From Natronoglycomyces albus (GTDB lineage: Bacteria; Actinomycetota; Actinomycetes; Mycobacteriales; Micromonosporaceae), in the NCBI RefSeq assembly GCF_016925535.1, contig NZ_CP070496.1, forward strand, positions 1,798,001 through 1,862,000: DNA of 64,000 bases, read 5' to 3'. A program made the translations under genes and the position numbers. Within the stretch, counting starts at the first letter, position 1, and every line of letters begins with the position of its first letter. Positions 39,057-56,063 of this stretch are shown here, piece by piece. The notes beneath the pieces are model-generated. The model saw only the letters and a list, made by a program, of their open reading frames with translations, was not told the DNA's origin and did no database searches.

Positions 39057-40604
39057 TTAGTCTCCTCGGAAGACTTCAATCTTCGCCCCGAGTTTGCCGA
39101 GCCTTTCGGCCAGCTGCTCGTAGCCGCGGTGGATGACGTTGACATGGCGCAGCACGGAGGTCCCCTTGGCTCGCAGCATGGCCAATAGCAAGACGACGGC
39201 CGGTCGCAAGGCTGGCGGGCAAACAATCTCGGCGCCTGACCAGCGGGTGGGGCCTTCCACCAGCACCCGGTGCGGGTCCATAAGGGACACATCGGCTCCG
39301 AGTCGGTTGAGCTCTGCCAAATAGATGGCCCGGTTTTCATACACCCAGTCGTGGACGAGCGTTGAGCCCTCGGCGCAGGCGGCGATAAGGGCGAAGAATG
39401 GAAGGTTGTCGATGTTGAGCCCGGGAAAGGGCATCGGGTGAATCTTGTCAGCGCGGGCCACCAGAGTCGAGGGATACAAGGTGATGTCGGCAAGCCGTGT
39501 GCGGCCGTTCTCGGCCGGATACTCCTCTGACCGTCGATAGTCCAGACCCATCTCCTCGAGCAGCGCGAGTTCGATTTCCAGGAACTCGATAGGCACCCGG
39601 CAGACACTGATTTCAGATTCGGTGACGATCCCCGCGGTGATGAGGCTCATCGCCTCGATAGGGTCCTCCGAGAGCGCGTAGTCGACATCGGCGTCAATCT
39701 CGGGTTGTCCGTGGACGATGAGGGTCGTGGTGCCGATGCCCTCGATGCTGACGCCGAGTTTCTCGAGGAAGAAACACAGATCTTGCACCATGTAGTTGGG
39801 TGATGCGTTGATCAAGGTGGTCTCGCCTGGGCAGCGGGCGGCGGCCATGATCGCGTTTTCGGTGACGGTGTCTCCGCGTTCGGTCAAGACAATCTTGCGT
39901 GGCGCGACAGTGCCATCAGAGACCGACGCGTGGTAGGTGCCGTGGGAGGTCTCAACCTCCAGACCGAAGGGTCGCAGCACGGACAGATGCGGCTCGACCG
40001 AACGGGTGCCCAAGTTGCAGCCCCCGGCAAAGGGCAGATCGAACTGCGGGTGATCATGGAGCAGCGGGCCCAAGAACATGATGATGCTGCGGGTACGGCG
40101 GGCGGCCTCGGCGTTGATATTGCTCAGGTCCAACTTTGCCGGGGGAGTGATCTCCAAATCCCCATTGTCGCCCAACCACCGGTATTGCACGCCCATCGAG
40201 GCGAGCACTTCCAGAATGCGGTTGACCTCATCGATCCGGGCCACTCGACGCAACGTCGTGGTACCGGAGGTGAGCAGGCTAGCGCACAGCAGGGACACCC
40301 CGGCGTTCTTGGAGGTCTTGACATCGATGGAGCCCGATAGCGTCACCCCGCCATGCACTCGCAGATGCACTGGAGTGGGAGAAGAGGGTGCGGATGCCTC
40401 GGCCTCCAAAGCGGCCGAGACCCGAGAAATGACGTCCGGGTCCAAGGCTATAGCGCCTTGCTCGATGTGTTCCAGGACAGACATGGGGACGCCGGCACGC
40501 TTAGCCAATTGGGCGCTTTCCATTCCCTGCCCGCGCCGAGCGGTGCGAATCAGAGAACCGATCTGGGTTCGGAACCTCTCGGGTCCGCCTGCGTATGTGT
40601 CCAT
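39057..40604 (-). CDS. HTH domain fused to UDP-GlcNAc 1-carboxyvinyltransferase (MurA-like)
   Basis: 515 residues. Residues 10-68 form an XRE-like helix-turn-helix (SLIRTARRGQGMESAQLAKR, followed by PMSVLEHIEQG). From about 80 a complete EPSP-synthase-fold MurA follows: Lys99-Asn100 (SKNAGVSLL), the catalytic Cys196 in GGCNLGTRSVEPHL, the Asp of FPGLNIDNLP and Arg in RPAVVLLL and HRGYEQL. All residues needed for enolpyruvyl transfer to UDP-GlcNAc appear present, and the Cys predicts fosfomycin sensitivity. The fused HTH may regulate or localise the enzyme. A conventional murA presumably lies elsewhere. Confidence 0.88.
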   Translation of the reverse strand: MDTYAGGPERFRTQIGSLIRTARRGQGMESAQLAKRAGVPMSVLEHIEQGAIALDPDVISRVSAALEAEASAPSSPTPVHLRVHGGVTLSGSIDVKTSKNAGVSLLCASLLTSGTTTLRRVARIDEVNRILEVLASMGVQYRWLGDNGDLEITPPAKLDLSNINAEAARRTRSIIMFLGPLLHDHPQFDLPFAGGCNLGTRSVEPHLSVLRPFGLEVETSHGTYHASVSDGTVAPRKIVLTERGDTVTENAIMAAARCPGETTLINASPNYMVQDLCFFLEKLGVSIEGIGTTTLIVHGQPEIDADVDYALSEDPIEAMSLITAGIVTESEISVCRVPIEFLEIELALLEEMGLDYRRSEEYPAENGRTRLADITLYPSTLVARADKIHPMPFPGLNIDNLPFFALIAACAEGSTLVHDWVYENRAIYLAELNRLGADVSLMDPHRVLVEGPTRWSGAEIVCPPALRPAVVLLLAMLRAKGTSVLRHVNVIHRGYEQLAERLGKLGAKIEVFRGD

Positions 40605-44351: not shown

Positions 44352-45980
44352 CTATGGTGCTCTGCGTCGTTCCCGATGAGCATGTAGCGGATTGTCCACG
44401 GGCAGGTATTGATCAGAGGTCTGCCGCAGCCGCATCGTCAACATTGCTTTGGTGGGAAGCGTCGCGGCGAAGTAGTAGTCACGGTCCTGGGCGGGTATGT
44501 CGGTTTGGGCGATGAGGTCGGCAACGATCGCCCATGCCTCTTGGTGCTTGATGAGACTGTCGCTTACCAGTGCCTCGATGACAGCGCCAAGGTGGTTGTG
44601 TATCACCGTGAACGCGACCTTGCGGTGGGTTTGCATGCGGTCGGTTGTGGCGATGGGAGCGTTGTCTGGGAAGTTGACTGTGAAAGGCAATTGTGGTTTC
44701 CACAGACGTATTCCGCCCAGGTCTCGCACAATAACCGCTTCTGGGTGTGGACCGTTGAAAGCGATCAGCGTGTTTTGTTGGTGTCCTTCGATTCCGATGC
44801 CGAAGTGAGCCGATAGATGTAGTGCGGGTGGCAGTAGGAGGCGCACATATTTTTCCAGCCAGTTTTGCGCGGCAACCTGTGGCGCACACGTGTTTTGGCT
44901 GGCTGCCCAGGAGATGTATTCGCCGGCTAGGGATGTTGTTGCGGTGGGTGAGGGGCATGGCAGCGCGAGTGCTGGTACTGGGGTGGTTCCGGGTGGGGTT
45001 ACCTCGGCGAGGCTGGATCGGGCGATGGCGGTTATGTCTCGACTGTGTGGATGCCAGGCGGAGGCGGTGTCGGTGAGAAATCGCCAGTTTTTGAGGATTG
45101 GGTCTTGTAGGGCGTTGAGTTTGCGCGACAGCTTTGGTGCCAATCGGGCTGTGGTTGGTGAGATTCCGCGGTCGGTTGAGGTGATGCGGATGCCGAGGGA
45201 CAATTTCACGAATCCGCTGCGGTGTGGTGTGTGCAGGGTGCGTATGGATGCGGTTGGCCACGCTGTGAGGGTGTCTCCGGTTAGTGTCAAGGATTTGTCG
45301 GTGAATAGTTCGGGGTGTCGGTGGCGCAGGTGTTGTAGTTGCCAGGGGTGGATGGGCAACACTGTGGCGTCGCCGTCGGGTTCGATGAGTCCGGGTATGG
45401 GGTGCCCGGCAGTTTTTAGTCCTTGTGCGCGTACTAGGGGGACATTGAGTGGTTCGGTGGTCTCGAGGTCGTATGCGGTGAAGTCGTGTGGTTTCCATCC
45501 CAGTCGTGTGCGGGCTAGGGCGTGTAGCCAGTGTCCACCGGTGGCTAGTGGTTCGAGGTGTCGGGTGATGTGGTGGTCGAATTGGTGTGGTTGGAGTGCG
45601 GCGGTGTAGTGCGCTAGTCCTTTGTCGGGCGAGGTTGCGACTGTGGTGGCTAGGGTGTCTCGATGTGTGGTGGCGCGATTGGTGGCTAGTTGGTGGCCGT
45701 GGACGGCGCTGGCGAAGTCGGCGGTTAGGTGGGTGGGGGTGGGTTGTCCGGTGATGGCGGTGAGGATGTCGTCGGCGGGTGCGGGTTGGCCGTTGAGGGT
45801 GGGTGGTTGGTGGAGGGTGAGGTGGTTGAAGGGGCTGTGGGTGGCGGTGAAGTGCAGGGGCCCGGATGCGGTGTTGAGTTGGTGGTGGTCGCCGTTGATG
45901 GTGGTGCGGTTTCGGATGTGGTTGAGGTTTTCGCGCCAGGCGGCGGCGATGGTGCGGGTGGCGACGTGGGTGTGGGTCAC
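44352..45980 (-). CDS. NIS siderophore synthetase (IucA/IucC family), second copy
   Basis: 542 residues from GTG 45980, which overlaps the stop of the upstream synthetase. Family blocks: GGHWLHALARTRLGW, LPIHPWQLQHLR, KLSLGIRITSTDRGISP, HFGIGIEGHQQNTLIAFNG and EAVIVRDLGGI. These enzymes activate citrate-like carboxylates with ATP and condense them with amines or alcohols. The first 100 residues are His/Thr-rich, reflecting very C-rich codons. The product is unknown. Confidence 0.92.
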   Translation of the reverse strand: MTHTHVATRTIAAAWRENLNHIRNRTTINGDHHQLNTASGPLHFTATHSPFNHLTLHQPPTLNGQPAPADDILTAITGQPTPTHLTADFASAVHGHQLATNRATTHRDTLATTVATSPDKGLAHYTAALQPHQFDHHITRHLEPLATGGHWLHALARTRLGWKPHDFTAYDLETTEPLNVPLVRAQGLKTAGHPIPGLIEPDGDATVLPIHPWQLQHLRHRHPELFTDKSLTLTGDTLTAWPTASIRTLHTPHRSGFVKLSLGIRITSTDRGISPTTARLAPKLSRKLNALQDPILKNWRFLTDTASAWHPHSRDITAIARSSLAEVTPPGTTPVPALALPCPSPTATTSLAGEYISWAASQNTCAPQVAAQNWLEKYVRLLLPPALHLSAHFGIGIEGHQQNTLIAFNGPHPEAVIVRDLGGIRLWKPQLPFTVNFPDNAPIATTDRMQTHRKVAFTVIHNHLGAVIEALVSDSLIKHQEAWAIVADLIAQTDIPAQDRDYYFAATLPTKAMLTMRLRQTSDQYLPVDNPLHAHRERRRAP

Positions 45981-47389
45981 GGTGTGGTCGTCCGTTTGGT
46001 GAGTGGGTTGGTGGTGTATGCCCATATTTCGGCGGTGGGTTGGTGGGAGAGTCGCATGGCGGTGGTGGCTTTGAGGGGCCACGGTTTGCTTAGGGTTGCC
46101 TTAGCTATTTCAGGATAGTCTCTTGTGGCGGCGTGGGCGGCCTCTGCTAGGTGTGTCCACCACATGTGGGGGTCGATGTGTGTGTACCAGTGGCTGAGCG
46201 CGTCAACTAGTTGGTTGAGGGTGGTGTGGTAGGCGGCCAGGAGTTTGCGGGTGCGGGCGGGGGCGTGGGCTTCGTGGAGTGTTCCGGGGAGTTCTGGGGC
46301 GAGGTCGGCTGGTATGGCGATGCCGCCGAGGTCGCGGTAGATGATTCCGGTCGGGTTGGGGCCGGTGAGGGTGATGATGGTGTTTTGCCCGTGGGCTTCG
46401 AGGGCGACTCCGGTGGTGCCGAGGAAGGTCAGTGGCCGGGTGTAGAGCTCGCATAGTTGTGCCCACCATTGTTCGACGCTGTGTTGCGATTGTTCGATGA
46501 GGGCGGCGGCGATGGGGCGGCCGGTGGTGGGGCATTTTTCGGCCAGCGCGGCGATGGGTGTGGGGGTGGTGCCGGGGTGGAGGGTGTGGGGGGCGGGGCG
46601 GGTGATGGCGGAGAGTGCGCCGGGTTGGGGGTGGTTGGTGGTGATGGAGGATTCGCCTTGGAGGGTGATGCCGTGGTCGGCGAGGGGGTCGGTGAGGTGG
46701 GTGGTGAGGTGGGGTCCGCAGGTGGTGGCGTTGGGGGAGACGCCGCGGATGGCGGAGGTCATTTGGATGTCGATGGCGAGTTTGATGTGGTGGGTGCCGG
46801 TGGAGAGGGTGCGGAGGTTGGCGAGGGGGGCGGTGTTGGGCAGGTGGTGGGTGGGGTCTCCGAGTTGGGTTTGGTAGCGGTTGGCTTGCCAGGGGTGGAC
46901 GGGTAGGGAGGTGGGTGGGTGGGTGCCGGCGGTGGTGGTGCCGGTGGGTGGTTGGTGGTGGGGGAGGTTGATGGTGGGTTGGTGTTCGGGGGCGTAGGTG
47001 CGGGTTTGGGTGTCGGTGAGGGGGTGGCGGTGGCGGGCGAGGGGGTGGGTGGGGTGTCCGGTGAGGATGAGTTGTTCGAAGAGGACGGAGGGGTCGGGGT
47101 GGTGTTGGTGGGCGGCGGTGAGGATGTTGGTGGGGTGGGTGGTGGCGGCGGTGAGGGCGAGGGCGTAGCCGTGGGTGGCGTGGGTGATTTCTTGGGTGAA
47201 GCGGTGGGCGTGGGGTGAGTTGCCGGCGAGGTGGGTGGCTAGGTGGGTGGGGTTGGTTTCGGTGCCGGTGTTGGTGCCGGGGAGGGGTTCGTGTTTGGCG
47301 GCGTGGTGGAGGCGTTGGCAGATGGCGGTGCGGGCTTGTTGGTGGTGGTGGGGGGTGATGGTGGTGTTTTGGTGTGCGTTGGTTTCCAC
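45977..47389 (-). CDS. NIS siderophore synthetase (IucA/IucC family), first copy, short
   Basis: 470 residues if GTG 47389 is the start. The frame is open far upstream, but that part is antisense-like reading of the J-protein gene. Blocks: LFEQLILTGHPTHPLARHR, LPVHPWQANRY, KLAIDIQMTSAIRGVSP, GVALEAHGQNTIITLTG and TGIIYRDLGGIA. It is about 100 residues shorter than usual, mostly at the N-terminus, and strongly His/Thr/Pro-rich. It overlaps the second synthetase by 4 bp (GTGA), so the pair is translationally coupled. Confidence 0.88.
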   Translation of the reverse strand: METNAHQNTTITPHHHQQARTAICQRLHHAAKHEPLPGTNTGTETNPTHLATHLAGNSPHAHRFTQEITHATHGYALALTAATTHPTNILTAAHQHHPDPSVLFEQLILTGHPTHPLARHRHPLTDTQTRTYAPEHQPTINLPHHQPPTGTTTAGTHPPTSLPVHPWQANRYQTQLGDPTHHLPNTAPLANLRTLSTGTHHIKLAIDIQMTSAIRGVSPNATTCGPHLTTHLTDPLADHGITLQGESSITTNHPQPGALSAITRPAPHTLHPGTTPTPIAALAEKCPTTGRPIAAALIEQSQHSVEQWWAQLCELYTRPLTFLGTTGVALEAHGQNTIITLTGPNPTGIIYRDLGGIAIPADLAPELPGTLHEAHAPARTRKLLAAYHTTLNQLVDALSHWYTHIDPHMWWTHLAEAAHAATRDYPEIAKATLSKPWPLKATTAMRLSHQPTAEIWAYTTNPLTKRTTTP

Positions 47390-47454: not shown

Positions 47455-48693
47455 TTAGACGGGGCTGGTGTCGGGTTGGGTGGGGGTGAGTTGGATGGCG
47501 GTGAGGCGGTCGCGGAGGCGGCGGAGGGTGGGGAGGTGGAGGTGGTGGGCTTGGGGGGTGAGCCAGGTTCCGATGTCGGAGGCGGCTTGGTTGGTGGGGA
47601 GGTGGCTGATGGTGGTTTCGGTGCTGATGATGCGGTCGTCGGGGAGGGTGGGCCAGATGATCCAGCCGCGGATGTGGGTGTCGGGGAGGGTGTGGCGTAG
47701 TTCGTTGATGATGTCGGGGAGGGTTTCGGGTGTGGCGTCGTGGGGGTGGCGGGGGATGGGTGAGGCGATGATGGCGGCGCGGTTGCCGGCGAGGATGAGG
47801 TAGTCGGCGTGGTGTCCGGTGGTGGTGGGTACGGCGGCGAAGAGTCGGGCGGAGGGGATGTGGGTGAGGAGTTCGCGGAGGAGGGCGCCGGTGGCGCGGT
47901 CGGCGCGGGGTTGTTGGCCTGGTGGGGCGAAGGCGTTGTATTGGGTGAGTGCGGGTTTGATGGTGGCGCGTAGTTGGATGGTGAGGCGGAGTCGGCGGAT
48001 GGTCCAGGGGACGGCTAGGCAGGCGAGGGCGTGGAGGGTGAAGGTGATGCCGATGGGGGAGGCGGAGGTGAGGTAGAGCATGGTGAGGGTGGCTAGGCCG
48101 GTGAGGATGGGGCCGGTTTTGGGGGTTTTGGGGGTGGCGGGGCGGGTGGATGCGTAGGTGATGAGGATGGCGGTGGTGGAGAGGAGGGGGATGGCGGTGG
48201 CGTGGAGGAGGGCGCCGTGGGTGTGGGTGAGGAGGGTGTGGGTGTAGAGGATGGCGGTGGCGATCCAGGTGAGGATGGCGCCTGCGGCGAGGCTGGTGCG
48301 GGTGAGGAGTGAGGGGGTGTGGGTGAGGCGGTTTTTGTGTATGCGGGCGTGCCAGGGTAGGGCGATGAGTTCGGTGGTGGTGGGGTTGTTGGTGGGGGGT
48401 TGTTTGGTGGTGGGGTTGATGCGCCAGGAGTGGGGGCGGCGGTGTTTTGAGCGGGTGTGGGTTTTGCCGTAGCGGCGGGCGGCGCGTTTGCCGTATTGGG
48501 CGAGGTCGTATTCGCGTCGGTGGCTGGGGTTGGAGAGGGTTTCCCAGGCGGTTTGGACGGCGTGGAATTCGGTGGTGGTGCCTCCGGCGTCGGGGTGGGT
48601 TTCGTGGAGGCGGCGCAGGTATGCGCTGCGGATGGTTTTGGGGTCCGCTTCGGGTGTGATGTGAAGTGTGCGGTAGTGGTCGGGTTCGCTCAC
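47455..48693 (-). CDS. J-domain membrane protein with a C-terminal soluble domain
   Basis: 412 residues. Residues 6-68 are a J domain with HPD at 33-35 (IRSAYLRRLHETHPDAGG, then AWETLSNPSHRREYDLAQ). About 130-240 hold three or four hydrophobic segments. The last 150 residues are soluble, with HADYLILAGNRAAIIASP and GWIIWPTLPDDRIISTET, vaguely recalling the early strands of NERD-type nucleases. It would recruit an Hsp70 to the membrane. It lies upstream of the NIS operon (65-bp gap) and downstream of the dynamin operon, all in the same direction. Confidence 0.8.
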   Translation of the reverse strand: MSEPDHYRTLHITPEADPKTIRSAYLRRLHETHPDAGGTTTEFHAVQTAWETLSNPSHRREYDLAQYGKRAARRYGKTHTRSKHRRPHSWRINPTTKQPPTNNPTTTELIALPWHARIHKNRLTHTPSLLTRTSLAAGAILTWIATAILYTHTLLTHTHGALLHATAIPLLSTTAILITYASTRPATPKTPKTGPILTGLATLTMLYLTSASPIGITFTLHALACLAVPWTIRRLRLTIQLRATIKPALTQYNAFAPPGQQPRADRATGALLRELLTHIPSARLFAAVPTTTGHHADYLILAGNRAAIIASPIPRHPHDATPETLPDIINELRHTLPDTHIRGWIIWPTLPDDRIISTETTISHLPTNQAASDIGTWLTPQAHHLHLPTLRRLRDRLTAIQLTPTQPDTSPV

Positions 48694-49076: not shown

Positions 49077-49592
49077 TTAGTTACTCCACCAGCGCGCCAA
49101 CGCCGAAATGCTGGGGTCACGGTCGGCCTGGGCCGCCTCCCACGTGTCGTGGCCGCCCAGATCCGCCGGAGAGGGTGAGTCGAAATCCCCGCCGGGAATG
49201 AAGGCGACCGATTCGTGGCTGCCCAAGGCATCCACATCGGTCCAAGGGAACCCGTCAGATGGTTCAGGGGTGTCAATGTCCAGAATGGGTGGGGCCTGCC
49301 ACGCCTGATCGGTGTCGCTGTAATTCTCAGCCACCAAAGGCAACTGCGGATGAGCCTCCACCGGGCCGGAATCGTCCAGAAACGTCCACTCCTCTTCGGG
49401 GAGACTCCCATTGGGTTCACCCTGACCCTGCAAGCCCACATCGCCCTCAGCGGCATCGCCAGTGTCGTTGACATCCAGATTGGCCCACGCATCAAGGTCT
49501 TCAAAGTCCGAGGGAAACAGCGGCCCATAGGCCTCGTCTGACTCGTGTCCCTCGGGTTCGTGGTCGTCGAGGTAGTCGTTGAAGTCATCCAT
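49077..49592 (-). CDS. Highly acidic protein encoded after the dynamin pair
   Basis: 171 residues with a very high Asp/Glu content and many Pro, Gly and Trp; it starts MDDFNDYLDDHEPEGHESDE and ends SALARWWSN. Likely disordered apart from a few aromatic motifs. The start overlaps the end of the second GTPase gene by 8 bp, so it is translationally coupled. By position it could be the counterpart of IniB in the mycobacterial iniBAC cluster, but no sequence similarity to IniB is evident to me. Confidence 0.75.
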   Translation of the reverse strand: MDDFNDYLDDHEPEGHESDEAYGPLFPSDFEDLDAWANLDVNDTGDAAEGDVGLQGQGEPNGSLPEEEWTFLDDSGPVEAHPQLPLVAENYSDTDQAWQAPPILDIDTPEPSDGFPWTDVDALGSHESVAFIPGGDFDSPSPADLGGHDTWEAAQADRDPSISALARWWSN

Positions 49593-51444
49593 GGAAGGCC
49601 CCTTGGGGAGTGATGGTGCGGGTCTTGGCCAGAACTTCGTCCAGCTGGCGAACTTTTTGACTCATGGCATCACGGCGACGCTTGAGCTGATCCTTTTTCT
49701 TAGCGCGAAGGTCCTTGTCAGCAACAGCGGCGGCCTCGGCGGTGCTGATACGGGCATCGATGGCCTCACCACGACGTCGCAAAGCCTCATCCAAAGCAGT
49801 GGTAAAGACGTACTCGATCTCGGTAAACCGATAGGCCACCTCCTCTTGCAGCGCAATACGAGCATCGACGAGAACATCGCGAACCCACCGGGCCGCGGCC
49901 TGCCGGTCACCGGTGATCTTGCGCCGATACAACAAAAACGCCCCAGCGGCGACCCCAATACCGATACCAGTGGCCGACAGCGCGGCGGTGGCCACCGTAC
50001 CCAGGGCCCCCAACCCCAAAGCCCCAGCCCCAGCGGTGGCGGCCCGACCAGCCAGGAAAGCCACCCCAGCGGTGGAGGCAATCAAGAGAGCCGAATCGGC
50101 GTTGGCCTCCCTGCGGCGCCTACTCGGAGAAGTCGCGGTCAGCTGCGTGTGAATAGAACGGGTCGCCCTATCAAGCTCCGATTCAGTCAACAACTCAGAC
50201 AACACCCGATGAGCCAGCAGCATAAACCTCTCGTGCAACTCCTGAGACAAACGCGAAGAGATAACCTGAAGAGCAACATCAAGCTTCTGCGGAAGAGCCT
50301 CGAGATCACTCTTCGAGGCACGTTCAGTATCGGTCAACAAAGACTCTTCGAGCTCCTTGAGATGACCCTTCAACCGAGAACCAACCTCAAGACGAGCACG
50401 AGCCGTCTCAGTACGCAAAGCCAAGTTCGCGCTGCGACTTTCGCTGTTCTTACGCTGAGCCAACAGCTTCTTCTCTTCACGCAGACGACTCACCACCTCA
50501 GGATCGGGATCCCAATCGGCCATCTCCTCCCCAGCCTCGGTAGCCAAACGCGCGAACTCAGAACGAGCCGCCCGCACCACGTTAGCCTCAGCCAACGCAG
50601 TGGAGGCCGAAGCGGCCGCCAACAGCGCCCTTTGCAGTTCACCCAAGCCCGACTGGGTGATGAGGGTGTGCTTGAGGTCGCCCTCGTAATGGTGGGCCTG
50701 TTGAGCCAAAAGAGCCGAGACCGGGTAATGAGCAGCAGTGCGGAAGCGGGAGGCGTGAGCGGCCAGGAGGTTCTTGTTTTCGGTGGCGATGGTGTGCCAT
50801 CCAGGGTAGGCGTCGATCTTGGTGGTAGCGAAGACGACGTGATTGACCCGGCGGGAAGCCTCGACCAGGAAGGCCAGTTCAGTGGCGGTCATGGGAGTGG
50901 AAGCGTCGGTGACCATGAGCAGACAGGTGGCGCTGGCGGCGGCTTCGAGAGCGATGTGGGCGTGGTCGGGGTCCAGCCCGCCAGTGCCGGGGGTGTCGAT
51001 GAGTCGGATGTGTTTGAGCAGCCCAGCGGGGTGACTGATACGCATGCGGCGTGGGGGCGCGATGCCCTCGGGTAGTTGTCCCAGCGCCGAGGCCCAGTTG
51101 GGGATGTCCTCGATCGGCACAGCGATGGGCTGATCGTGTCCAGGTTGCCAAGCTTGGGCTGCCAGGGTGGGGCCATGGACGAATTCGATGTAGGTGGAGG
51201 TGGCGGTGCGAACATCGACCGGGGAGAGTCCCGGCGCGGCCAACAGGGCGTTGATGAGGGAGGATTTGCCGCGTTTGGTTTCGCCGACCACGACGATGGA
51301 TGCCTCACCGTGGGTGGATTGGGCCAACTGGTCGATGCTGGCCGCGGCAGTGGGATCGATAGTGCGCAGGCTTTGCCGAGCCGCTTGAGCGGCCTTACGG
51401 CACAAGTGCGTGATGTCGCTGCCGTGTGCGGAGGCGGTACTCAT
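49585..51444 (-). CDS. Dynamin-like GTPase, IniA-type size
   Basis: 619 residues from ATG 51444, overlapping the stop of the first GTPase (ATGA). GTPase domain: G1 GETKRGKSS (54-62), G3 as LIDTPGTGG, G4 as TTKID. Then a long helical region with coiled coils, a hydrophobic Ala/Gly-rich hairpin (about 455-510: IASTAGVAFLAGRAATAGAG, VAAGAFLLYRR) that can insert into membrane as a paddle, and a C-terminal helical stalk. This is the layout of bacterial dynamins such as IniA, which remodel the cytoplasmic membrane. Confidence 0.9.
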   Translation of the reverse strand: MSTASAHGSDITHLCRKAAQAARQSLRTIDPTAAASIDQLAQSTHGEASIVVVGETKRGKSSLINALLAAPGLSPVDVRTATSTYIEFVHGPTLAAQAWQPGHDQPIAVPIEDIPNWASALGQLPEGIAPPRRMRISHPAGLLKHIRLIDTPGTGGLDPDHAHIALEAAASATCLLMVTDASTPMTATELAFLVEASRRVNHVVFATTKIDAYPGWHTIATENKNLLAAHASRFRTAAHYPVSALLAQQAHHYEGDLKHTLITQSGLGELQRALLAAASASTALAEANVVRAARSEFARLATEAGEEMADWDPDPEVVSRLREEKKLLAQRKNSESRSANLALRTETARARLEVGSRLKGHLKELEESLLTDTERASKSDLEALPQKLDVALQVISSRLSQELHERFMLLAHRVLSELLTESELDRATRSIHTQLTATSPSRRRREANADSALLIASTAGVAFLAGRAATAGAGALGLGALGTVATAALSATGIGIGVAAGAFLLYRRKITGDRQAAARWVRDVLVDARIALQEEVAYRFTEIEYVFTTALDEALRRRGEAIDARISTAEAAAVADKDLRAKKKDQLKRRRDAMSQKVRQLDEVLAKTRTITPQGAFHG

Positions 51445-52964
51445 GAGGCGGCCTCCTGCTGAGAGTTGAGCTGTTGGGCCAGGAGGAAGAAACCACGGTG
51501 GGCCACGTGAGCGACGCGGGCTTGTTGAGGGGTGGCCATGCCGTTGGCGAAGGCACGCCAGCGTGAAGCGGCACTGAGTGCGGCGGTGCGTAGTTGCCGG
51601 TCGGTAGCCCCGGGCATGGCCAGCACCTGTGCGGGATCTTGGGTCAGCGCTAGCCGGGCCACCTCGGCTTCCATGTCTTCGGGGAGTGCCACCTGAGCGG
51701 TGGTGACCGCTGCGGCGGCGTCGAGAATCTTCAGCTGGTGGAATTCGGGCTTGGCCAGCAGCGTTTCGATGCCAGCGCGGATGATGTCGCGGTCGGCGTC
51801 GGTGGCGTTGGCCGCGTGTGCGCTCAGGCGCGAAAGCGCGAAGGAGGCTTTGATGATGTCGGCCCTTTGGGCGAAGGACTTGTGGAGGGTTTGTTGCAAT
51901 CGGGGGTAGCCCGAGGCGGCTTGGAGCAATCGCAGCAGGTCGGCGGTGGCCAGGTGTGGGTTGGCGCGTAGTTGGGACAGTGCGAAGGAGATGCCGTACA
52001 AATCGAGGCGTTCCAGCAATCGGGTGCGGGCCTCGACGTCGACATCGCACGGCAGGGAGGTGAACAGGCCCACCGCTGTGCACATGAGCTGTTGGGTGGT
52101 TTGGGGGAGGGTCGCGATGGTGCGCAGGTGTTGGCAGTCGGTGGCGGTTAGCTGCCCGGCTTGAGCGGTTTCGGCTAGGAGGCCCACCAGTGGCACCACG
52201 TCGCAGACGTTGCGGCGTAGTACTTGGGCTTGTTCGCGGGCCAGTTCATCGGCGGTGGGCCAGGGGTCGGCTCCTGCTTGGGGGGCTAGGTGGTCGATTT
52301 TGTTGAACAGGGCCAGCGAGTTGACCGGGGAGGAGGACAGCTTGTGGGTGAGGGAGGCAAACGCTTCGAGGGCGTCGATGTCGTCGGAGCGTACTTGTTG
52401 GGTGAATACGTAGATGATTGCCTCGGCGGCTTCGGCGGCCGATTGGGAGTCATCGTCGATGTCCTCGGCTAGGGGCGCGTGGGAGAGGGCGGCGCGTGCG
52501 GCCTCGGAGATGGAGTCGTTGACTGATTGCAGCCCGGGGGTGTCGATGACGGTTAGCTCGCGCAGGTTGTCCGAGGCCAGGGTGACGTTGAGGTAGGCGA
52601 TGTGGGAGGTGGGGCGGTCCAGGTGTTGTGGCACCATGCCCGCGTCGTCCAATGGCATTGAGCAGGTGGTGCCGTCGCGGCCGACGATGTCGACTCGGTC
52701 GGTGGGCCCATAGTGGTATTCGGTGACCAGTCGGGTGCATTCACCAGCGGCGGTGGGGGCTACGCGGCGCCCAATCAGGGCATTCACTAGAGTGGATTTT
52801 CCGGCCTTGAGGCGACCGGCGACAGCTACCCGCAGGGGCTGGTTGAGTTTGTCGGAGACTGGTTGGATCTTGGCGCGCGTCGCAGGTGTGACCTCGGTGA
52901 CCAATTGCCGACACAAGGCAAGTACTTGGCCTGTTAGTTCACCGGTCACCTGCATACTCCTCAT
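51441..52964 (-). CDS. Dynamin-like GTPase, IniC-type size
   Basis: 507 residues from ATG 52964 (ATG 52955 is also possible). G1 is GRLKAGKST (50-58), followed by TAAGECTRLVT (switch I Thr), G3 VIDTPGLQS and G4 FNKID. No obvious membrane paddle; the C-terminal half is helical. Its length is close to mycobacterial IniC, and it precedes the longer GTPase, so the two may form a heteromeric membrane-remodelling machine. First gene of the operon, 150 bp from a divergent regulator. Confidence 0.9.
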   Translation of the reverse strand: MRSMQVTGELTGQVLALCRQLVTEVTPATRAKIQPVSDKLNQPLRVAVAGRLKAGKSTLVNALIGRRVAPTAAGECTRLVTEYHYGPTDRVDIVGRDGTTCSMPLDDAGMVPQHLDRPTSHIAYLNVTLASDNLRELTVIDTPGLQSVNDSISEAARAALSHAPLAEDIDDDSQSAAEAAEAIIYVFTQQVRSDDIDALEAFASLTHKLSSSPVNSLALFNKIDHLAPQAGADPWPTADELAREQAQVLRRNVCDVVPLVGLLAETAQAGQLTATDCQHLRTIATLPQTTQQLMCTAVGLFTSLPCDVDVEARTRLLERLDLYGISFALSQLRANPHLATADLLRLLQAASGYPRLQQTLHKSFAQRADIIKASFALSRLSAHAANATDADRDIIRAGIETLLAKPEFHQLKILDAAAAVTTAQVALPEDMEAEVARLALTQDPAQVLAMPGATDRQLRTAALSAASRWRAFANGMATPQQARVAHVAHRGFFLLAQQLNSQQEAAS

Positions 52965-53113
52965 CGCCTCTAGTGTGCATGGACTAAATCGTGGACTGCA
53001 ATATGTCGGGCGCTCTCATATGATGTCACTATCGGCCCGTTGTGCTTTCCAACTTAATGCCGCAACGCTTGCTTTCACCTCCCTGATTCGTGCCAAACGA
53101 AGGAGCGTCCCTC

Positions 53114-55534
53114 GTGCCCGAGACGGCCCACCTGCACCCTGCCAGCCACGCCCGTGCCGTGGAGAGGGTGTGCGACCTGGCCGACCAGGGTGCCTTCGTT
53201 ACGCTTGTGGGGGCCGCCGGGGCTGGCCGATCGTGGGTGTTGCAGCAGGTTGCGCACCGATTTGGGTCCCGAGCGTTTGTGGGTGGCGGATTGGCCGCGC
53301 TTTCGTCCCATCCGGCGTTGGCGCTCATGCGAGCGCTGCGGGTGTCACTGCCGGGCGATGATGTGGCTCTATGCGCTGAGGCGGTCCTGTCGCGCACTCG
53401 TGGCGGCGTGGTGATCATTGACGATGCCCAGTTTTGCGATCCGGTCACCTTGGCGGCCCTGCCGCTTTTGGCTGGGCGGGTGCCCGTGGTGGTGGCGTTG
53501 CGTCAACCACATCGGCTCAGCGATACGGTCGAGGCCGCGCTGCTGGAATGCTCCCAGGTGGTCACCCTTGGCCCCTTGGAATACCAGGAAGCCGCCAGCA
53601 TTGTCACCGCGATTCATCCCACCGCCCACCGGGTCGACATCGACCGTATCGTCAAAGCCTCAGGCGGTAACGCGGTGGCGCTCAAAGCCCTGGCGTGGCG
53701 TCACCGTACTGGCGCTGCGCACCGGGTGGCCGCCTCCGATGCGGAACTCACAGCGCATCGCGACAGCGATGCGGCCCTAGAGGCCATCGCCGAGGCCATC
53801 GCGGATGTGGATCGGGCCTGCCGTACCGCCTTGGTCGCCTTGGGGCTCCTGGGGCGACCCGCCCACGCCAGTTTGCTGGGAGACGCCGCTGGGCGCCTAG
53901 CCGAGGCAGGTTGGCTACGAGCAAGCCGGCACGGGCAAGGCTTTTGGGAACCGGTCTCCTGGTGGATGGCCGAATGCGCCGCCGGGCTGGCTGAAAAAAC
54001 CGAACGAGACGACATTCACCGCCGATTGGGCATGGCCACCAAAGGTGTCGAATCAGCCCGCCACCTGGCTGCGGCCGGACTCGACGTCCCGGCCCGGGCC
54101 GCGGCCCTGACCGCAGCCGAGGAGACCACTTCGATTACCGACAAAGCCGAAGCCCTCCTGATAGCCCACCGGCTTAGCGACCAACCCGACCCCGACCTGG
54201 CAGTACAAGCCGGTCGGGCCGCGTTGGAGGCCGGACGCGGCCAGCAGGCGCTCGACGCGGTCGATGGCGTCGCCGGAGACCAGGCGGCCTGTATCCGCTC
54301 CTGGGCCCACCTATCGGCCGGACGTCGCAGCCAGGCATTGGAGGCAATCGACCAGGTGAAGGGGGCCGAAGCGGCCCGGCTGCGACTGCTGGCCAACCCC
54401 GAAGCATCCGTGGCTGACCACCTTGAGGATGAAACCGACCCGGCCTTGCAATGCGCCATCGCCGTAGCGCGCGCCCGCACCCGCCCCGGCTGGGAAGGCG
54501 ACATCTCCCGGGCCGCGGCGATGGCAGAATCCAACGCAGACCTCCTGACGGCCCGGTGGGCCCTGTGGGCACTCACCTGCGCGCTCATCGACGAAGAACG
54601 CCTGGAGGAAGCCCACACCACCGCCACGGCCGCAGCGGCAGAGGCCAAGGCCGCAGGAGCCTACTCCTGGCACACCCGATTCATCTCCGCGGCCCTGTGG
54701 TGCCGCGCCTTGCAAAGCCACAGCCTCGATGAGGTCATCGCCGAGGGAGGAGACCTGGCCGACCGGGCCCTACCCGCTCACGCCCACGGACTCACCACCG
54801 CGGCCGTGGCGTTGGCCGAGGCCGACACCGGCGCGCTTCGCTCGGCGCGAGACCGGCTCGAAGCGGTAGGTGGCATCCCCACCGATATTGCCGCCTCGGT
54901 GGCCTGGGTTGCCTGCGAGGCGGCCTGGCTGGATGGACAACCGGCCGCGTTTGCTCACATCCCCTCGACGGGCCGTTCTCTGCCGGGGGGACTGGCTCAC
55001 ATCACCGCGCATTGGGCCGCTAGCGATGCCGGTATTTTCCCACCCCAGACCCCCGATGGGCGCTGGGGTGGCGCCGTGGAGACCACCTTGGAGGCCTGGC
55101 GGAAAGAAAACCCGCAGTCTTTTTGCCACGCCGCGGCCGCCTGGGATGGTCTGGCCGTGCGCGAACAGGCCCGATCGTTGATCGCCGAGGCCATGTTCGA
55201 GTCCGATCGTGACCGCGCCATCGCCTGTTTGCAACAGGCTGAGGCACTAGCCACCCAGGCGGGATTGGCGGTGCTGTGTGGCCGCATCCGCCGTTTGCTC
55301 CGCCAGCACAACGTGCGCCGTGATTCCCGGTCGCAACGTTCGGTCGGTGACATCACTCGCCGGGAAGCCGAAGTGTTGCATTTGGTCGCCGCTGGCGAAC
55401 CCACCCGTCGTATCGGCCAGACCCTTGGCATCACCCCAGAGACCGTTGAGACGCATATCCGTTCGGGGATGCGTAAACTCGGCGCCCGTACTCGCACCGA
55501 AGCCGCTGTGCTCTTGGCCCGTCGAACCCAATGA
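53114..55534 (+). CDS. LAL-type LuxR regulator with a modified Walker A motif
   Basis: 806 residues from GTG 53114, preceded by GAAGGAG. N-terminal ATPase: Walker A GAAGAGRS (33-40) has Arg in place of the catalytic Lys, and Walker B is VVIIDDAQF. A helical TPR-like middle region of about 450 residues follows. The C-terminal LuxR HTH is DITRREAEVLHLVAAGEPTR, then TLGITPETVETHIRSGMRKL. Such large regulators sense a ligand through the ATPase/TPR part. It is divergent from the dynamin operon, the most likely target, and is followed after 7 bp by a second LuxR-like gene. Confidence 0.87.
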   Translation: MPETAHLHPASHARAVERVCDLADQGAFVTLVGAAGAGRSWVLQQVAHRFGSRAFVGGGLAALSSHPALALMRALRVSLPGDDVALCAEAVLSRTRGGVVIIDDAQFCDPVTLAALPLLAGRVPVVVALRQPHRLSDTVEAALLECSQVVTLGPLEYQEAASIVTAIHPTAHRVDIDRIVKASGGNAVALKALAWRHRTGAAHRVAASDAELTAHRDSDAALEAIAEAIADVDRACRTALVALGLLGRPAHASLLGDAAGRLAEAGWLRASRHGQGFWEPVSWWMAECAAGLAEKTERDDIHRRLGMATKGVESARHLAAAGLDVPARAAALTAAEETTSITDKAEALLIAHRLSDQPDPDLAVQAGRAALEAGRGQQALDAVDGVAGDQAACIRSWAHLSAGRRSQALEAIDQVKGAEAARLRLLANPEASVADHLEDETDPALQCAIAVARARTRPGWEGDISRAAAMAESNADLLTARWALWALTCALIDEERLEEAHTTATAAAAEAKAAGAYSWHTRFISAALWCRALQSHSLDEVIAEGGDLADRALPAHAHGLTTAAVALAEADTGALRSARDRLEAVGGIPTDIAASVAWVACEAAWLDGQPAAFAHIPSTGRSLPGGLAHITAHWAASDAGIFPPQTPDGRWGGAVETTLEAWRKENPQSFCHAAAAWDGLAVREQARSLIAEAMFESDRDRAIACLQQAEALATQAGLAVLCGRIRRLLRQHNVRRDSRSQRSVGDITRREAEVLHLVAAGEPTRRIGQTLGITPETVETHIRSGMRKLGARTRTEAAVLLARRTQ

Positions 55535-55541
55535 GGTCACC

Positions 55542-56063
55542 ATGCGCCCGCTACACGTTGTCGCCTCCACGGCCGAAGCCGAGGCCCTGATACGTAAATT
55601 GAGCCTGGCCGGATGGACCCGCCGCGACGGGTTCGCCCTCATGGACACCTCCTGGGACATCGGGCCGCAAACGCTGGTGTGCGTGGGGCGCCTGGGCGAT
55701 ACCCACACCGCCTCCCAAGCGGTGTTGGCGGCGGCTCGCGGCGCTGGCGTGGTGGCCATTTGCGACCCTACCGGGGCGTTGGGGCGGCGGGTGCGCAGAG
55801 ACCTTGAGCGTATCGGCCCGCTGGGGTGGATGCCCGGTACAGGTGAGGCCAGCGCCAATGATGTGGGTTTGGATGAGCAGCAGTGCAAGCTGTTGGATCA
55901 TTTGGCGCAAGGGTTGACCATTGCCGCTGCCGCCGAGGCTGAGTTTATTTCCTTGCGTACGGCCAATCGGCGTATTGCCGCGGCTCGGCGGTCTTTTGGT
56001 GTCTCCACTACTCGGCAGGCTGTGGTGGCTTATGTGCAGCACATTTCGGCGGCCGATGGCTAG
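55542..56063 (+). CDS. Small LuxR-like DNA-binding protein with a receiver-like N-terminus
   Basis: 173 residues from ATG 55542, preceded by GAGGT. Residues 1-105 alternate strands and helices (LHVVASTAEAEALIRKLSLA, VVAICDPTGALGRRVRRDLE) in the manner of a receiver fold, but without the phosphoacceptor Asp pocket. The C-terminal 60 residues look like a LuxR HTH: DEQQCKLLDHLAQGLTIAAA, then FISLRTANRRIAAARRSFGV. Co-transcribed with the LAL regulator. Its last 4 bp overlap the convergent TetR gene. Confidence 0.75.
   Translation: MRPLHVVASTAEAEALIRKLSLAGWTRRDGFALMDTSWDIGPQTLVCVGRLGDTHTASQAVLAAARGAGVVAICDPTGALGRRVRRDLERIGPLGWMPGTGEASANDVGLDEQQCKLLDHLAQGLTIAAAAEAEFISLRTANRRIAAARRSFGVSTTRQAVVAYVQHISAADG

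Follow-up and report, generated by a model that had tools for sequence, protein, structure and literature searches.

A pair of adjacent dynamin-like GTPases in Natronoglycomyces albus, together with a small acidic protein and two divergently transcribed regulators, probably constitutes a dedicated, inducible locus for remodelling the membrane of the cell envelope. Since the dynamins are relatives of IniA and IniC and the LAL-type regulator resembles IniR in layout, we consider it a likely variant of iniR-iniBAC, the stress locus of the mycobacteria; it would be activated through a single operator-like box and assisted by chaperones. In mycobacteria the iniBAC operon is the classic marker for stress from cell-wall drugs. 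Other actinomycetes possess a related dynamin pair, which is accompanied by chaperones and has different regulators; a literature search for the locus outside the mycobacteria returned no paper.

Organization of the locus

The locus lies in a stretch of 64,000 nucleotides that was analysed as a whole and is referred to as the window. All five genes that an earlier note on this DNA had named were found at the positions and with the lengths given there (Table 1). The three genes on the minus strand overlap by a few bases (iniA and iniC in the sequence ATGA, the acidic gene and iniA by 8 bp) and therefore very likely form a single operon. The fourth codon of iniC, at 52955, is preceded by GAGGAG and may be the better start, in which case the protein would count 504 residues. 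On the other side of a divergent gap of 149 bp (52965-53113) the gene of the LAL-type regulator (LAL) and that of the small regulator (lux) are separated by 7 bp; a longer open reading frame from 55278 was considered for lux and rejected.

The gene of the J-domain protein, which the earlier note had not included, is located downstream of the acidic gene, a position common to the Glycomyces-group relatives. In these relatives, as in the window, it is followed by two IucA/IucC-type siderophore synthetase genes (44352-47389, minus strand). Elsewhere on this strand (39057-40604) an EPSP-synthase-like protein is fused to an N-terminal helix-turn-helix, which is an uncommon combination.

Table 1. 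Genes and sequence features of the dynamin locus (positions within the window).
Feature	Position	Strand	Remarks
J-domain protein, 412 aa, with hydrophobic segments	47455..48693	-	Pfam DnaJ E 1.7e-13; synteny
Acidic protein, 171 aa	49077..49592	-	
Conserved C-terminal motif DPSISALARWW, acidic protein	49086..49118	-	alignment of 18 sequences
Conserved short motif PEPSDGFPW, acidic protein	49242..49268	-	alignment of 18 sequences
IniA-like dynamin GTPase, 619 aa	49585..51444	-	
Hydrophobic segment of the IniA-like protein, about residues 452-507	49924..50091	-	alignment, hydropathy
IniC-like dynamin GTPase, 507 aa	51441..52964	-	
-10 hexamer TAAGTT (predicted)	53051..53056	-	21 bp after the box, towards iniC
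Conserved box TGGCACGAATCAGGGAGG	53078..53095	-	consensus TGGCACGAAnnnGGGA
LAL-type regulator, 806 aa	53114..55534	+	start GTG
Parts of LAL			N-terminal P-loop NTPase-like domain, long helical-repeat-like middle, C-terminal LuxR/GerE HTH
Small regulator (lux), 173 aa	55542..56063	+	start ATG

The dynamin pair and the acidic protein

The likeness of the two GTPases to IniC and IniA, noticed earlier from the letters of the sequence, is borne out by profile match, phylogeny and fold match. More specifically, the profile of the IniA-like protein matched IniA of M. smegmatis (6j72) with an E-value of 1.3e-28 over columns 47-603, which is nearly its full length. The predicted model of this protein, with a mean pLDDT of 80 and low values in the hydrophobic segment, also found IniA 6j72 as its best match in the PDB, although with low whole-chain TM-scores (0.34-0.38). 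Hinged dynamins and an uncertain placement of domains in the model can have this effect, and the match therefore rests on the E-value and the sequence. A tree of 53 sequences contained an IniC clade and an IniA clade, each with an SH-aLRT of 100 and with a largely matching inner order. The mycobacterial counterparts fell inside the respective clades, together with the adjacent pair of the window. Because the tree places the mycobacterial pairs, with one pair from Phytohabitans, in a separate subtype, the pair in the window is of the IniA/IniC kind and not necessarily a strict orthologue of that in iniBAC. Phytohabitans maris (L098) has a mycobacterial-type IniR-Hsp70-IniA-IniC locus within the Micromonosporaceae.

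The GTPase motifs of both dynamins are intact (G1 GRLKAGKS and GETKRGKS, DTPG, NKxD and TKxD), including G1, G3 and G4 of the IniC-like protein. The hydrophobic segment of the IniA-like protein occupies the position of the paddle or lipid loop, the structure of which was modelled with low confidence, and a strongly hydrophobic segment was not found in the IniC-like protein.

The acidic protein has a pI of 4.05 and consists for 25% of Asp and Glu. Its N-terminal part is unconserved and probably disordered. Identification as IniB was rejected, as its profile gave no match to the mycobacterial IniB or IniB*, and no IniB-like gene was seen in the operon.

Conservation of the locus

We surveyed 151 genomes of the family to which the organism belongs, the nearest named relatives being Glycomyces, and found orthologues of IniC (E <= 1e-100) in 100 of them. 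The earlier note had let its proposal depend on the regulators being conserved beside the dynamins, and this they are: LAL, lux, IniC and IniA were kept together in all of 20 loci from 16 genera, and the acidic gene was detected by tblastn, through its C-terminal part, in 19 of these. A set of 30 loci that comprised the window's own showed the arrangement LAL-IniC-IniA without exception, with LAL divergent. Lux and IniC were found together in 95 of the family genomes and neither in 48; the exceptions, five genomes with IniC and without lux (each assembled in more than 300 contigs) and three with the reverse, are mostly fragmented assemblies. One of the three lux-only genomes (G008, locus L146) lacks LAL, IniC, IniA, the acidic gene and Hsp70 en bloc, and the gap sits between the usual flanking genes. 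Matches to lux that were limited to the HTH (about 63-70 residues) occurred in G009, G015, G038, G050 and others, which have no strong IniC orthologue.

This distribution bears on two other functions that the dynamins might have. The first, a suggestion already made in the earlier note, is protection against phages, in which the pair would seal membranes or delay the lysis of infected cells upon induction by the LAL sensor. DynA of B. subtilis indeed protects against phage lysis (PMC8844932), and the PADLOC profiles LeoBC and LeoA match the IniA-like protein (E 5.5e-17 and 7.6e-14, respectively). Nevertheless, these matches are modest and reflect general dynamin homology, and beyond them the suggestion found no support: the locus follows the lineage in its inheritance, often beside the same flanking genes, and is not patchy like defence islands, and no defence genes were found among the neighbours examined. 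We therefore regard a role in defence as very improbable.

The second is a role in development or division, in which the pair would support septation or sporulation in the manner of DynA and DynB of Streptomyces and the regulators would be developmental. The long vertical inheritance in filamentous families agrees with such a role, as does the connection of Streptomyces DynB with cell division (PMC8748795). Against it, in most genomes outside the order the IniC profile found nothing beyond weak and partial matches, so that the Streptomyces pair probably belongs to another subfamily; in addition, a regulator dedicated to one target suggests inducible use, and the block was lost cleanly from G008. 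On balance this role seems rather unlikely, although less so than the previous one. The best functional reading is that of an inducible membrane machine for envelope stress, by analogy with iniBAC, which cell-wall inhibitors induce by way of IniR (PMC5760070), and with the ability of IniA to bind and cut membranes (PMC6715688).

The divergent regulators

LAL has the layout of the LAL regulators, with an N-terminal NTPase, a long helical middle and a C-terminal LuxR HTH, and matched GerE (E 5.5e-15) and, weakly, AAA_22. The Walker A motif, however, reads GAAGAGRS, in which Arg replaces the Lys (GxxGxGR[ST]). The same replacement was found in 21 of the 22 relatives with a readable motif, and Leu in one; the Walker A of STAND proteins, GxxGxGK[ST], is thus absent from the window and from nearly all relatives. 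A Walker-B-like hhhhDD is present in most of them. Because the P-loop Lys has been replaced, LAL would not be an ordinary ATPase switch and ATP-driven switching as in MalT is doubtful, and so is the earlier description of the regulator as STAND-like.

The alignment of IniR retains the P-loop Lys. A search with the IniR profile against the LAL proteins yielded zero matches, and the LAL profile recovered IniR only with the filters off. The two profiles did align with each other end to end over 705 columns (probability 98.7), a comparison of these two families alone, which could be inflated by the shared architecture and the Ala-rich composition.

The AlphaFold model of lux (pLDDT 86) shows a shortened alpha/beta domain and a NarL/FixJ-type HTH. 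The best fold matches in the PDB were FixJ and RcsB (E 2e-4), closest over the HTH. Ordinary phosphorylation of lux is unlikely, since the alignment has no conserved acidic pair after strand 1.

A conserved box in the divergent gap

A motif search in 23 divergent regions returned TGGCACGAAnnnGGGATCC with 23 bits, versus 10.5-11.2 bits in shuffles. The box always points towards iniC. In all 53 homologous regions that hold it a TAnnnT follows at a spacing of 20-22 bp (20-21 bp in 52 of them). The consensus TGGCACGAAnnnGGGA occurs once per gap in all 26 loci with a divergent LAL/lux pair and is absent from all 38 dynamin-pair loci with other regulators (two-component systems or IniR). It is lacking as well in Geodermatophilus (L073), in which both regulator genes lie downstream of the dynamin genes in the same orientation. 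A single exact copy is present in the window's genome; nine additional sites with one mismatch, compared with four for the reversed control, were unconvincing as further copies. The stricter form TGGCACGAANNNGGGATC was found in 75 of the 151 genomes and its reversed control in none.

Conservation alone is no proof of function, because related sequences share their ancestry, but the remainder of the gap varies widely between genera in length and sequence. The gap has a plain -10 and no good -35, and a box that adjoins the -35 region in such a setting is the classic layout of an activator-dependent promoter. We predict that TGGCACGAATCAGGGAGG is the operator of the LAL/lux pair; the box could also bind the small regulator or something else rather than LAL. 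In either case the shared divergent control region proposed in the earlier note is real, as the box and its promoter-like spacing attest; the box itself is new, as are the J-domain gene and the wider link to chaperones. The box might instead be an element of the promoter or be recognized by a sigma factor or global regulator, with LAL acting elsewhere. Its core TGGCAC resembles the -24 element of sigma-54 promoters and a -10-like TAnnnT follows it, but there is one exact copy per genome, and the box is tied to the divergent LAL/lux pair and missing where two-component or IniR regulators take its place, which makes this alternative improbable. The sigma-54 variant was rejected, as no sigma-54 (RpoN) domain was found in the window's genome.

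Linkage to chaperones

A GrpE-like protein with hydrophobic N-terminal stretches is encoded between IniC and IniA in 14 of 20 family loci, the C-terminus of these proteins scoring above the cut-off for Pfam GrpE, and several family loci contain a tail-anchored Hsp70 or a J-domain membrane protein. The association extends over the Actinomycetota: in 54 of 64 dynamin-pair loci at least one chaperone gene (membrane GrpE-like, J-domain or Hsp70) lies within 8 kb of IniC, compared with 0 of 27 unrelated control loci, which were drawn from other taxa. The other 10 dynamin-pair loci have no linked chaperone. In an Amycolatopsis locus (L064:11604-13387) IniC and the GrpE-like gene are separated by three extra genes, one of them TetR-like.

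In the window's genome a membrane GrpE-like gene was not found, only the ordinary GrpE beside dnaK, and the best candidate for a membrane Hsp70 is unlinked to the dynamins, near 1.08 Mb. This Hsp70 (L150, G000:C1:1079000-1090000) contains a membrane segment, and its long C-terminal part resembles WD40 repeats.

A dnaK-like gene was noted in M. smegmatis by Boot et al. (PMC5760070); we found no paper on a general link between dynamin pairs and chaperones, and one on GTPase-Hsp70 conflict systems does not mention dynamins or IniA (PMC7159879). Tentatively, a membrane-linked Hsp70 cycle, made up of the J-domain membrane protein, the membrane GrpE-like exchange factor and an anchored Hsp70, may act on the IniA/IniC coat to assemble or dismantle it, and may have been kept across the Actinomycetota while the regulators were exchanged. 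If true, this would be a bacterial counterpart of the uncoating by Hsc70 and auxilin.

A model for the locus

Taken together, we propose that LAL would bind the single box, which lies immediately upstream of the -35 region, probably together with its small FixJ-like partner, and would thereby activate transcription of the iniC-iniA-acidic operon from its promoter. IniC and IniA would then form a heterotypic dynamin pair, which may contact the cytoplasmic membrane via the hydrophobic segment of IniA and reshape or repair it under envelope stress. The acidic protein is a candidate adaptor or assembly regulator, acting via its C-terminal LARWW motif. The dynamin complex is probably assembled or recycled with the help of the nearby Hsp70 system, represented by the J-domain protein in the window and by membrane GrpE-like and Hsp70 proteins in relatives. 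In this arrangement the conserved machine (dynamin pair, acidic partner and chaperones) is separable from the lineage-specific sensing, and the one-target operator would offer a means to measure induction in harmless actinomycetes such as Glycomyces or Actinoplanes.

Comparison with known systems

MalT and other LAL regulators share the architecture of NTPase, repeats and LuxR HTH with LAL, which differs from them in its P-loop Arg. DLP1/DLP2 of Campylobacter and LeoA/B/C of ETEC are likewise bacterial dynamins encoded side by side, with a fold of the same broad class, but distant in sequence, and these systems are not known to have a LAL regulator, acidic partner or chaperones.

The iniC-grpE-iniA loci of the Pseudonocardiaceae have dynamins of a sister clade, the same gene order and an acidic protein after IniA. 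Their divergent regulators, however, are a histidine kinase and a NarL-type response regulator, they lack the TGGCACGAA box, and their acidic protein is of another family (DUF6802). As this kinase and response regulator, like the mycobacterial IniR, hold the same divergent place as LAL and lux, the dynamin machine is kept while its sensors and regulators are exchanged between lineages. Mycolic acids are not expected in the family of the window's organism, and the mycobacterial trehalose cue may therefore not apply.

Compared with iniR-iniB*-iniBAC (Rv0339c-Rv0343) of the mycobacteria, the locus has the gene order C-A instead of A-C, an acidic protein after IniA, no IniB or IniB*, an extra FixJ-like regulator, and dynamins of a separate subclade. 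The earlier note had held that regulation differs from that in mycobacteria; this is probably correct for the sequence families, LAL and the Lys-retaining IniR appearing distinct, but not for the kind of regulator, since IniR too is a nearby, oppositely transcribed protein with NTPase, MalT-like and LuxR-like parts (PMC5760070). IniR binds ahead of iniBAC and had no other target by RNA-seq (PMC5760070). The two systems have in common the homologues of IniA and IniC, an oppositely oriented regulator of similar size with NTPase, MalT-like repeats and LuxR HTH, its dedication to a single operon, and an Hsp70-like gene that often adjoins them.
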